This document shows positions 18,334-22,226 of a stretch of DNA of 22,295 nt, in pieces. Made by a program: the position numbers and the translations under genes. Every line of letters begins with the position of its first letter. Within the stretch, counting starts at the first letter, position 1. This DNA is from a virus. Below the pieces are notes generated by a model. The model worked only from the letters and a program-made list of their open reading frames with translations. It made no database searches and was not told where the DNA came from. The stretch lies in the IMG/VR virus record IMGVR_UViG_3300035698_030287, positions 1-22,295 of that record, one strand, 5' to 3'.

Positions 18334-18394
18334 CAGGAGCATGCTGCCCTTTCCAAAAAGGTCTTAGCTCAAAAACAGTGTACTCCTGTTTTTT
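18334..18394. terminator. Probable bidirectional terminator between convergent gene strings
   Basis: AAAAACAG (18371-18378) can pair with CTGTTTTT (18386-18393) around a seven-base loop. It lies 50 bases after the last plus-strand stop, and its 3' arm overlaps the final base of the minus-strand operon, so it can serve both strands. An alternative outer stem, CAGGAG (18334-18339) with CTCCTG (18383-18388), is followed directly by six T residues on the plus strand, also terminator-like. A small hairpin CCTTT/AAAGG (18348-18361) sits inside it. No energies were calculated. Confidence 0.6.
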
Positions 18395-18971
18395 ATTCTG
18401 GATTTGGTAATCTTATCACATTCCCTGTTTGAAGCTCTTCGATATGAGTTACCATGATTATTTGTACATCAAAGTCCTCTGCTAATTCCTCTAGCATCTC
18501 TCTCACGTTGTCTCGATACTTTATCGACACGAACTTAAATGGCTCGTCCATAATAAGTATTCGTCTTAATTTCGGCTTTGAGAGAATAAGACATGAAAGG
18601 CGAAGAGCAAACGCAGCCACATCAACTATGCCTCCTCCGCTTGCAGACATGGGGTCCACTTCTACTCCATTTTTTTCAAAGACTAAATTAGCCTCTGTCT
18701 TGCCTCTCTTCTTCTCAAAATTTATTTTGAATATATAAGGTTTTTGGAAAACTGCTGTCAAACATTTGCTAACCACTCGGGCTACTTTATTGTGAGCTTG
18801 GTTTTGAATATATTCTGCAGTTTGTTGTGCAAGAGATTGGGCATTCTGGATAAAAATAAGATGTTGTTTTGTGTTTTTCAGTTCTTCCTGTTCGAGTTTA
18901 TATTGTTGACAAACCAATTTTTTATTTTGTACCCAACCTTCAACTTTTTTATGTAGTTCGTTCAAGCTCAT
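18393..18971 (-). CDS. SbcC/Rad50-like ATPase, C-terminal half
   Basis: This 192-residue protein is predicted coiled-coil over residues ~1-60. The ABC-ATPase signature is SASGGGIVD (109-117), Walker B is RRILIMDEP (136-144; D142, E143), and the H-loop is MVTHIEEL (173-180, H176). It has no Walker A and needs the N-terminal half encoded at 20143-21165 to make a complete nucleotide-binding site. Together they would equal an SbcC/Rad50 or phage T4 gp46-like subunit that partners the SbcD-like nuclease. Its start overlaps the upstream coiled-coil gene by 23 bases, in the +1 frame relative to it. It is the last gene of the minus-strand block. Confidence 0.82.
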   Translation of the reverse strand: MSLNELHKKVEGWVQNKKLVCQQYKLEQEELKNTKQHLIFIQNAQSLAQQTAEYIQNQAHNKVARVVSKCLTAVFQKPYIFKINFEKKRGKTEANLVFEKNGVEVDPMSASGGGIVDVAAFALRLSCLILSKPKLRRILIMDEPFKFVSIKYRDNVREMLEELAEDFDVQIIMVTHIEELQTGNVIRLPNPE

Positions 18972-19209
18972 CTTGCCATTTATCCTTAAATTCTTCTAAT
19001 GAATTCTCGAATTTGTTAGTTGCTAGTTCTGTTCGGACCTTTAGTTTTTCAAGACCTTCTTTTGCTTTGGCTAGAGTACTGAAACCAAATTCATCTTTTA
19101 ATTGTTTTTTTATCTGCTCCAAAGCCCCCTCAGCTCTATTAGCCTGCTCTTGTGCTCGATCAACCTTCTCTTTTATTTTTAAGAAATCTACATGTATGTC
19201 ATGTTTCAT
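18949..19209 (-). CDS. Small coiled-coil protein, probable SbcC arm segment
   Basis: This 86-residue, highly charged protein is helical throughout with heptad-like spacing (FLKIKEKVDRAQEQANRAEG, LEQIKKQLKDE, LEKLKVRTELATNKFENSL). It contains no catalytic motif. AGAGG lies 6 bases before its ATG, so it can be translated independently. In a normal SbcC/Rad50 the chain after the zinc hook returns as a long coiled coil to the C-terminal ATPase half; this protein sits exactly at that place and could supply the returning arm. It overlaps the SbcD-like gene by 11 bases. It could alternatively be fused to the next gene by frameshift. Confidence 0.65.
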   Translation of the reverse strand: MKHDIHVDFLKIKEKVDRAQEQANRAEGALEQIKKQLKDEFGFSTLAKAKEGLEKLKVRTELATNKFENSLEEFKDKWQDELERTT

Positions 19210-20197
19210 TTGTAACCTCTTCTATTATTCTTTCCAATATTTCTTTTACATTTTTGTTTATGCCTTTTTTCTTAAGTGTTTGTTTAAGAGTAGCCGTAAA
19301 ATCCATAGCTGTACTTTCTAATTTTTGCAGATCGTTAAAGAAATGAGTGAAGTCAATCCCATCCTCTGCTTCTTCATCCATTATAAAGATTTCCATTCTT
19401 TTGTCTTCTTTTGTATCTAAAAAATACTTCTGTACAGTACCATCTTTTTTAAGTAGCCCGACCATTGGTCTATAATCTTTTTCGTTTTTGTGTCTAATCA
19501 TAAAGGTGCCAGAATTGAAAATAATAGTATCAAATAAATTAGATATAAAACCTTTATGATTGTCTCCAAAATGAGCTACATTATATCCATTCCATAAATG
19601 TCCCATTCTGCCTTTATGATGCTTTGCAATCTTTACTAAGTTTCCACTATTTGGTGCTCCTCTAAATTCATATCCGGGCACCCACATATACTCATGAGCC
19701 ACACAAAGATGAATGCCTTCTAAATTGGATGCATTGTTAGCTCTAATTTCATGCCCAAAAGGATGACCGTATATATGTAAATCGGTGCCATGTGTTGATA
19801 TTAAATATGGAATTTTAGGTTTTAGATTTTTTATTTTTCCACTTTCTACTAAAGTCCAATAAGCACTTTTCCTCCTTGCTTTGTAACCATGATAAGGTAG
19901 ATCATGTTGACCGGGTATAGCATACATTTGAGGTAAAAACTTCATAGCGAAATTAATAACTTCTGGAGTAGTGTTCCATTTATCAAATATATCACCGGCA
20001 CAAATAACAGGACAACCTATATTTTCTGCAAGTTTTGTAAGTTGGTTTAATGGTCTTGTCATCGCCTCTAACCAATTCTCCTCTTCCGATCTGTAAACAG
20101 GAGGAGCTTGAGATAAATGCAAATCAGAACATAAAATTGCTATTATATTGTTATCTGCCCCGTACCTTTGCAAACCGGACATTTTTCCCCTGCACAT
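19199..20197 (-). CDS. SbcD/Mre11-like metallophosphoesterase (gp47-like)
   Basis: The 332-residue protein is the nuclease subunit of an SbcCD-type complex. Metallophosphoesterase motifs are in order: SDLH (24-27), AGDIFD (67-72), PGQHD (95-99), AHEY (167-170) and HFGDNH (209-214). Two differ from the usual forms: GQHD for GNHD, and FGDNH for the GHxH motif. SbcCD/Mre11-Rad50 enzymes process DNA ends and hairpins; in T4 the homologues gp46/gp47 drive recombination-dependent replication. Start ATG 20197 has AAGGA nine bases upstream and overlaps the SbcC N-half gene by 55 bases; ATG 20182 is an alternative. The gene sits between the two halves of its partner ATPase. The C-terminal ~80 residues are helical. 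Confidence 0.85.
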   Translation of the reverse strand: MCRGKMSGLQRYGADNNIIAILCSDLHLSQAPPVYRSEEENWLEAMTRPLNQLTKLAENIGCPVICAGDIFDKWNTTPEVINFAMKFLPQMYAIPGQHDLPYHGYKARRKSAYWTLVESGKIKNLKPKIPYLISTHGTDLHIYGHPFGHEIRANNASNLEGIHLCVAHEYMWVPGYEFRGAPNSGNLVKIAKHHKGRMGHLWNGYNVAHFGDNHKGFISNLFDTIIFNSGTFMIRHKNEKDYRPMVGLLKKDGTVQKYFLDTKEDKRMEIFIMDEEAEDGIDFTHFFNDLQKLESTAMDFTATLKQTLKKKGINKNVKEILERIIEEVTNET

Positions 20198-21165
20198 TTT
20201 TCTAATTCCTTTTTATATATTTTTAAAACTTTTTGTGTTTGGTTTATCTTTTCTTCACCTTCTATATATGCAGTCAAAACCGGTTTTAGTGATTCAATTC
20301 TTTTCTCTAGTTTTTGAGTTTGTTGTTTTTGTTTTGCTACTTCGACAAAGCTAACAGGTTCATTTACAATTACTCTTTTCCAATACGAACCATCTTTTAG
20401 GAGAGCGGAAAGGCAAGAGAAAGAGTCTTCTAATTTTTTACACAAATCACCTGATTTTATTAAATTTTGGACTCGAGAGTTAAGGTTAGAAGCCCGATCC
20501 AATTTATGGGTATATGTTATAGCCTGGCTAATTTTAGAGCGTAAATCATCATAATTTTTATTTAGCTTTTTTGCTTTATCATCGGTTTTCTTGAGCTCAT
20601 CAAATTCACTTTTTATATCTTTAACAAAAAGAAGTTCCTTGTTCCTTTTTTGTAATTTGTCTATTTTTTCTTCTTGTAAGGTTATTTTCCAAGTATCTTT
20701 GCGAAGCTCTGATGCGATAGTCGCAAGTGTCTTATCTATTATTCCTAAGTCCACAATACTATTGAGTTGTCTTGAAACCTCACCCGCAGATATACTAAAC
20801 CAAAAAGGCGAGTCGTGCTGTCTTTGTACATTTATATCGCCTATGTTAAAAAGGTTGGAAATAGGATCCGGGACCTTATTTCCAAAAGCATAAAATTCTT
20901 CTTTATTAAGAGTGTATAAATTTTGAGATTTACTTCGTTTCCTTTTAATAGTGCTGTCATCTGCAATAAGTTGGACCGATGCTTTTTCAGTTCCGTCCTT
21001 TATAAAAGCATCTCCGGTAGGGTGGTTCTCCATTATCCATAACAAAGCTCTCAATACTGCACTTTTGCCGATATCGCTCGGCCCGATGATTGAGGTCACT
21101 TTACCGAAATAAAGGTCCAACTTTTTATGTGATTGAAAATTTCTTATTTTGAGGGACTTGAGCAT
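20143..21165 (-). CDS. SbcC/Rad50-like ATPase, N-terminal half ending at a zinc hook
   Basis: In this 340-residue protein the Walker A motif is GPSDIGKS (28-35) after an IRNFQSHKKLDL start typical of the family. A possible Q-loop lies in NIGDINVQRQHDSPFWF (107-123). Residues ~150-320 are coiled-coil. The last 17 residues contain CPVC (329-332), the zinc hook at which two Rad50 molecules join, and the protein stops eight residues later. No signature, Walker B or H-loop is present; these are in the separate gene at 18393-18971. The start is ATG at 21165 (TAATG overlap with the upstream gene). The gene is thus one lobe and one arm of an SbcC-like subunit, divided at the natural turning point of the chain. 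Confidence 0.85.
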   Translation of the reverse strand: MLKSLKIRNFQSHKKLDLYFGKVTSIIGPSDIGKSAVLRALLWIMENHPTGDAFIKDGTEKASVQLIADDSTIKRKRSKSQNLYTLNKEEFYAFGNKVPDPISNLFNIGDINVQRQHDSPFWFSISAGEVSRQLNSIVDLGIIDKTLATIASELRKDTWKITLQEEKIDKLQKRNKELLFVKDIKSEFDELKKTDDKAKKLNKNYDDLRSKISQAITYTHKLDRASNLNSRVQNLIKSGDLCKKLEDSFSCLSALLKDGSYWKRVIVNEPVSFVEVAKQKQQTQKLEKRIESLKPVLTAYIEGEEKINQTQKVLKIYKKELEKCAGEKCPVCKGTGQITI

Positions 21166-21437: not shown

Positions 21438-21592
21438 GGTTGAGAAGTAGCAAATCCACAATTACCACATTCATACATTTTATGGTTTTCATTCCAGGTT
21501 AAGGTATCGGAGTCACATAAAATACATTTATATACTTGATCTTTTTTACACGCTTTTTCTTCTTCGCGTTCTTTTTTTGTTTTTGGGATCAT
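21434..21592 (-). CDS. Small zinc-ribbon protein
   Basis: This 52-residue gene is short enough to be missed by length cut-offs. It starts at ATG 21592 with AAGGAG six bases upstream, inside the 3' end of the nuclease gene (47-base overlap). The mature part has YKCILCDSDTLTW (21-33) and MYECGNCGFATS (39-50), two CxxC pairs that make a classical zinc ribbon; C15 lies outside this. The start is basic and charged (KTKKEREEEK). Similar ribbons occur in transcription-factor and replication-accessory proteins and in phage middle or late regulators. The stop overlaps the next gene as ATGA. The function is unknown, but it is probably nucleic-acid binding. Confidence 0.78.
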   Translation of the reverse strand: MIPKTKKEREEEKACKKDQVYKCILCDSDTLTWNENHKMYECGNCGFATSQP

Positions 21593-22226
21593 CAGTGTCT
21601 CCTTGTTTATTTTTAATTTGCTTCTGCATACTTATTATCGTATTTGGACTTACAGATTGTAAAAAATTATTGAATGTTGTTAGGCATATTTTTTTATATG
21701 ACTCAAATCCCTTTAATTTGACTTTGGTATAAAACCATGCTCCTTCAATATTAGAATATCTCTTTAGTTTTTTGTAAAAAGAATATGGCATAGAAATAAT
21801 ACCATTTCTATTGTCTCGTTGAGAGATAAGTAACCAAGCAGGTGATCCAGCCTCTACCGCACTATTGATACATTGGATTAAGAAGTTTTCATATCCGGTA
21901 GGATTTTTAGAGGAGCGATTACTTTTTTCTATCAAGTTGGAAAATGTGTCTTTATTATATCCTCTTTTTATCTCTATAGGACAGACATCAATGAGAGGCT
22001 GTCCAATTGGATCTGTCGCTTGTACATCACCATACTGACCAAAGGTGGACTGATTAGTTTTGGAACGTTGAGTAGCTCTTCCGCCACTGCTAGCCGTGCG
22101 CCAAAAAACATCGTCCCGTTCTTCATCAGTCCACCATAAGCTTAGTAGTTTACAAACCTCTCTTTCGTAAGAGGATCCTTTTCTCTTCCCCATTCCTCTT
22201 TTAGATTTTTGTTTCTTCTTAATCAT
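21546..22226 (-). CDS. PD-(D/E)XK-type nuclease / putative Holliday junction resolvase
   Basis: In this 226-residue protein GSSYEREVCKLLSLWW (17-32) carries the first acidic residue (E21 or E23), GQYGDVQATDP (63-73) carries the catalytic Asp (D67), and CPIEIKRGY (82-90) carries the E-x-K pair (E85, K87). Together these form the E...D...E-x-K active site of PD-(D/E)XK nucleases. WRTASSGGRAT (42-52) is typical of phage resolvase/RecB-like proteins of this type. The C-terminus from residue ~205 is Lys/Arg-rich. It probably resolves or cuts branched recombination intermediates made by the SbcCD-like genes downstream. The start ATG 22226 has no strong ribosome binding site; it overlaps the upstream partial gene by eight bases. 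Confidence 0.75.
   Translation of the reverse strand: MIKKKQKSKRGMGKRKGSSYEREVCKLLSLWWTDEERDDVFWRTASSGGRATQRSKTNQSTFGQYGDVQATDPIGQPLIDVCPIEIKRGYNKDTFSNLIEKSNRSSKNPTGYENFLIQCINSAVEAGSPAWLLISQRDNRNGIISMPYSFYKKLKRYSNIEGAWFYTKVKLKGFESYKKICLTTFNNFLQSVSPNTIISMQKQIKNKQGDTDDPKNKKRTRRRKSV

Follow-up and report, generated by a model that had tools for sequence, protein, structure and literature searches.

The window, a 22.3-kb viral contig (IMGVR_UViG_3300035698_030287, positions 1–22,295), carries four overlapping genes that resemble a Rad50/SbcC ATPase divided at its zinc hook, an SbcD/Mre11-like nuclease and a small coiled-coil protein (Table 1). The successive overlaps are 55, 11 and 23 bases, the first of these assuming that the nuclease starts at its first ATG (40 bases if it starts at the next). 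Walker A of the N-half reads GPSDIGKS, and the CPVC of the half-hook occupies residues 329–332 of 340, with the stop eight residues further on. The genes of the split system and a PDDEXK/RusA-like gene occupy the minus strand of the window; the plus strand encodes a tape-measure protein and has a cluster of sugar/glycosyltransferase genes. Between 11569 and 18321 (+), glycosyltransferases, methyltransferases and a GDP-mannose-dehydratase-like epimerase lie clustered.

Table 1. Features of the split system in the window, with its upstream neighbor and the chromosomal loci of similar organization
Feature	Positions or loci	Strand	Length
Rad50/SbcC N-half: N-lobe (Walker A, Q-loop), outgoing helical arm, C-terminal CPVC half-hook	20143–21165	−	340 aa
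Hook-region codons (CPVCKGTGQI), overlapping the nuclease-gene start	20151–20181 (approximate)	−	
SbcD/Mre11-like nuclease; motifs DLH, GDI, GQHD, H168, GDNH	19199–20197	−	332 aa
Small coiled-coil protein	18949–19209	−	86 aa
Rad50/SbcC C-half: short returning coil, signature-like SGGG, Walker B LIMDEP, H-loop THI	18393–18971	−	192 aa
PDDEXK endonuclease/RusA-like resolvase family gene, upstream neighbor (context only)	21546–22226	−	
Chromosomal split loci, mostly between recA and rny (herA in L260, L262, L264; nurA in L262, L264)	L206, L253, L254, L256–L264		

An earlier note, made from the letters of the window, had described these four genes, their overlaps and their motifs, with Walker A, arm and a near-terminal CPVC in one half and signature, Walker B and H-loop in the other; all were located as described. 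Its assignment of the genes to an SbcCD/gp46-gp47-like complex divided at the hook also held up in profile and fold searches of the halves. Rad50 N-lobe chains match the N-half profile (E 1e-12), and fold matches by Foldseek and VIA agree. The AlphaFold model of the N-half (pLDDT 86) is an SMC/Rad50 N-lobe followed by helices spanning residues 140–177, 179–267 and 274–324 and the hook at 329–332. Rad50 C-lobe chains match the C-half profile (E 2.5e-10); another match of the window C-half is PHROG 15167, “ATPase.” The SbcC model TIGR00618 does not match the window N-half at E 0.01, and the C-half is likewise without a TIGR00618 match among the matches listed. The nuclease matches Metallophos, has all five phosphoesterase motifs, and gives a model (pLDDT 89) for which Mre11 chains are the best Foldseek matches; tblastn of annotated phages returned no relative of it.

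The window has an N-lobe with Walker A and Q-loop, a C-lobe with signature, Walker B and H-loop, and, by sequence motif, a CxxC at the distal tip of the arm. These features (both lobes, a helical arm, a CxxC hook and an Mre11-fold partner nearby) are shared with T4 gp46/gp47, E. coli SbcCD and the archaeal-eukaryotic Mre11-Rad50 complexes. In T4 gp46, SbcC and Rad50, however, a single chain carries the hook in its middle (we confirmed the earlier note's statement for gp46, which is 560 aa with a mid-chain CPTC), whereas here the chains are separate and the hook lies at a C terminus. We class the system as a variant of Mre11-Rad50 because the lobes are not joined in one polypeptide by a coiled-coil hairpin; they are on separate polypeptides in all split relatives except an armless 700-aa fusion described below.

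The catalytic motifs also deviate. The signature of the C-halves departs from SGGE, reading SGG(G) or GGG(x), and Ser usually replaces the Asp of the canonical LD in the D-loop. These changes imply that details of the ATP site differ, and ATP contacts across the dimer may be remodeled in the split forms. In about half of the C-halves the signature Ser is replaced by Gly. The nucleases of the window's group have GQHD for the Mre11 GNHD and GDxH for GHxH (90 of 112 non-redundant sequences), so that motif III Asn becomes Gln and the first His of motif V becomes Asp; in the other group N and H are retained. The two altered positions are those that we take to be metal-2 ligands in P. furiosus Mre11.

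A different identity for the halves was considered, in which the N-half is a stand-alone ABC ATPase, SMC-related (ASRP-like) or defence-like, and the C-half belongs elsewhere. The NCBIfam model for the archaea-specific SMC-related proteins (ASRP, ClsN/Sph1; NF045487) matches the window N-half with E 2.8e-13 and aligns over nearly its whole length, scoring 49 bits where the cut-off is 300, and the two share an N-lobe, an arm and a zinc-hook motif; AriA, Old and GajA models match weakly. An N-lobe lacking Walker B and signature, however, cannot be a complete ABC ATPase, both halves are found together, in the same orientation, at 98 viral loci (among the matches listed), and fusions exist both of Mre11 to the N-half and of Mre11 to both lobes (L255). 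ASRP, moreover, is one chain, and the portion of PMC9389158 available to us describes no split chains. In the Gabija, PARIS and OLD defence ATPases a TOPRIM nuclease lies on or beside the ATPase, whereas none of the four window proteins has a TOPRIM match. We therefore regard the stand-alone reading as improbable and retain a divided Rad50. A defence-system ATPase as such was rejected, the matches being weak and generic.

Overlapping, split frames in a single contig are also what a frameshifted or decayed gp46/SbcC gene might look like, whether from assembly error or as a pseudogene. We examined this against viral loci from IMG/VR scans seeded with split sequences, in which the best 80 matches were kept where more were found. 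Among the matches listed, 98 non-redundant loci have both halves, with the genes all on the same strand, and 84 of these have the order N-nuclease-small-C. The earlier note had named, as grounds for giving up its reading, relatives with fused halves and a window that alone is disrupted; the relatives turned out to be split as well. No open reading frame matched both halves among 200 viral loci (split queries; among the matches listed), though, given how the scans were seeded and their matches kept, an uncommon fused relative may have escaped them. The motifs are intact, and recurrence of the genes and of the CxxC in dozens of divergent phages speaks against chance. Across 50 aligned N-halves the invariant positions are G28, G33 and K34 of Walker A, Q116, N135 and both hook cysteines, the latter thus being as invariant as Walker A. 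With the same arrangement, nuclease between the halves, in a cultured cyanophage (below), the conservation of split relatives refutes the broken-gene reading, to which we assign next to no probability.

As the earlier note had proposed, the hook has become a C-terminal feature: a CxxC lies within 30 residues of the N-half end in 96 of the 98 loci (among the matches listed), and Pfam Rad50_zn_hook gives partial, below-cut-off matches exactly at the C termini of two relatives. Gene order is less constant. Twelve of the 98 loci, among the matches listed, are N-C-nuclease, with a small gene that the profile missed visible by eye in several, and two are N-nuclease-C by profile. One of these two is the cultured cyanophage, Microcystis phage Mvi-JY20, whose small gene also escaped the profile and whose overlapping genes run N, nuclease, small, C; its C-half as a query found no matches in IMG/VR. 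A nuclease gene between the ATPase halves, which the earlier note had put forward as a layout of which it knew no description, is therefore real in the window without being unique to it, and is one of several orders. Bacillus phages have N-small-C-nuclease, and in Bacillus phage vB_BboS-125 an AP2/HNH-like gene follows the N-half, ahead of small, C and an unannotated nuclease frame. In Tunturi_5 and Magritte, cultured phages like vB_BboS-125, the N- and C-half genes are far apart, and the Magritte N-half has no CxxC hook. In the orders N-nuclease-small-C, N-small-C-nuclease and nuclease-N-small-C, the small gene keeps its place ahead of the C-half.

HNH/AP2-like genes lie right at the split points in five loci (L002:6407–6979, L109, L118, L012:1846–2598 and L008:5371–5973); by Pfam, those in L002, L118 and L012 match weakly, L109 matches AP2 only and L008 has no match. 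Their position suggests that the split could stem from homing endonucleases. In addition, some C-half N-terminal extensions (L111:6716, L112:5299, L113:6914, L118:6854) begin with SKNLNDLFG- or SLKDLL-like residues resembling a sliding-clamp-binding motif.

The split organization is also conserved on plasmids and on Bacillota chromosomes. Mre11 is fused to the N-half on plasmids pSC2 (Paenibacillus, 841 aa) and pGspE55-1 (Geobacillus, 801 aa); both fusions end in CPxC plus ∼20–25 residues and are followed by the small gene and the C-half (L200, L201). An Alkaliphilus plasmid carries nuclease, N, small and C, all unfused. In one Bacillota genome (L255:4652–6754) a single 700-aa chain joins Mre11 to both the N-lobe and the C-lobe, and lacks the hook and nearly all of the arm. 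These fusions indicate joint action of the genes that are separate elsewhere. Fusions of Mre11 to Rad50 have been reported, among them those of Bacillus phage 0305φ8-36 and Anaerostipes, which lack one NTPase segment (Yoshida 2011, PMC3175470). The pSC2 and pGspE55-1 proteins likewise join Mre11 to the Rad50 N-half; a separate C-half gene is not described in the portion of that paper available to us, and such a gene may explain the segment missing from the 0305φ8-36 and Anaerostipes fusions, which may be the same type of split.

On an Ezakiella chromosome the genes run recA, nuclease, N-half (CPLC 24 residues from the end), small, C-half, rny, and N, small and C are arranged likewise in eleven further Ezakiella-family loci. 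Among 61 genomes of this family, a split C-half is present in 38 (E < 1e-20) and a fused SbcC in 13 (E ≤ 1e-15), with both in 2 and neither in 12, so that the two are nearly exclusive (Fisher p = 1.5e-4). In a phylum-wide Bacillota sample the C-half was found in 49 of 299 genomes. Twelve Bacillota chromosomal loci comprise eleven with nuclease-N-small-C and the one 700-aa fusion; of the eleven, eight adjoin recA and rny and three adjoin herA, two of these three also nurA, the RecA, RNase Y, HerA and NurA neighbors having been checked with Pfam in part and otherwise read by eye. Archaea have a herA-mre11-rad50-nurA gene cluster, which the three herA-linked loci recall in following a herA-like gene (two also with nurA), but here Rad50 is in three pieces and the gene order is different.

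A tree built on both lobes, N and C (55 rows), places every split form, along with the 700-aa fusion, apart from SbcC and T4 gp46 (99/98), and distinguishes the window's phage group from a second group of cell, plasmid and Bacillus-phage members; several deep forks in it are unsettled, with long branches to T4 gp46, Mvi-JY20 and Tunturi_5. Our literature search, largely of sources other than subscription papers and preprints, found no published description of a split Rad50/SbcC, and priority is not established.

The arm of the N-half, from N-lobe to CxxC, is quantized across L008–L199 at ∼145, 187, 229 and 271 residues, in steps of 42; none of 5000 jittered sets matched this periodicity, and autocorrelation of sequence within arms has a weak peak at 41–44. 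SMC arms are also of discrete lengths, with steps of about 100 residues (PMC5344682). The small protein and the C-half coil together span ∼147 residues, equal to the shortest class of N-arm, and the 187- and 229-residue classes are not matched; lengths of the small protein and C-half are uncorrelated with that of the N-arm. Longer arms must therefore end differently, because the arm steps come without a matching change in either partner. The small gene precedes the C-half, the position of the distal returning strand in a single-chain Rad50. The small protein of one relative matched ASRP positions after the hook, other members matching other coiled-coil regions instead, and between the two phage groups the profile-profile similarity of this protein is weak. 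The idea that the small protein is the exact missing strand of the arm was rejected, as the lengths fit the shortest class alone and do not correlate, and is kept as a lead.

A genuine split Mre11-Rad50 could do without zinc-mediated dimerization of its tips, the C-terminal CxxC binding zinc within its own chain or meeting another protein, as might fit a hook located at a chain terminus instead of in a loop, the hookless Magritte N-half, and the 700-aa fusion without hook or arms. We consider this unlikely. Against it, the CxxC is both invariant and terminal. One CxxC gives two zinc ligands, so that two N-half tips are natural partners; no CxxC was found by sequence reading in the small proteins read, leaving N-half pairing as the simplest route to four ligands.

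Considered as a whole, the window very probably encodes a phage Mre11-Rad50 (SbcCD-type) end-processing complex whose Rad50 consists of permanently separate chains. We infer the physical complex from gene linkage and fusions. Within it, N- and C-half would pair non-covalently into one ABC head, an assembly with precedent, as P. furiosus Rad50 was crystallized as separate N- and C-fragment chains (PDB 1f2t, A and B). Two such heads, seated on an Mre11 dimer, would clamp ATP and DNA between them, and the CxxC tips of two N-halves would share one zinc, building the hook from chain ends. The small protein would pack against the arm and probably make up the distal portion of the returning strand. 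Binding of ATP would gate Mre11, which would process DNA ends or hairpins, for recombination-dependent replication in phages, as for T4 gp46/47, and for recA-dependent repair in bacteria. With rather less assurance, we lean toward a separate, old class of Mre11-Rad50, common to phages, plasmids and many Bacillota chromosomes, with an obligate three-chain Rad50 of N-half with its terminal half-hook, small arm protein and C-half. This class would replace SbcCD in its hosts, and its arms and hook would be free to open or be exchanged at the chain ends.

Rad50 is usually pictured as one long polypeptide that folds back at the hook, and this picture underlies models of how the ring opens, how DNA enters and how head and hook communicate. 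A natural Rad50 with a covalently discontinuous arm would test which of these single-chain ideas are essential, and the split form would give small, separable subunits for structural work. It would also allow annotators to name four families now listed as hypothetical protein, ATPase or metallophosphoesterase, and would explain DNA-end processing in many Bacillota without a recognized SbcC.
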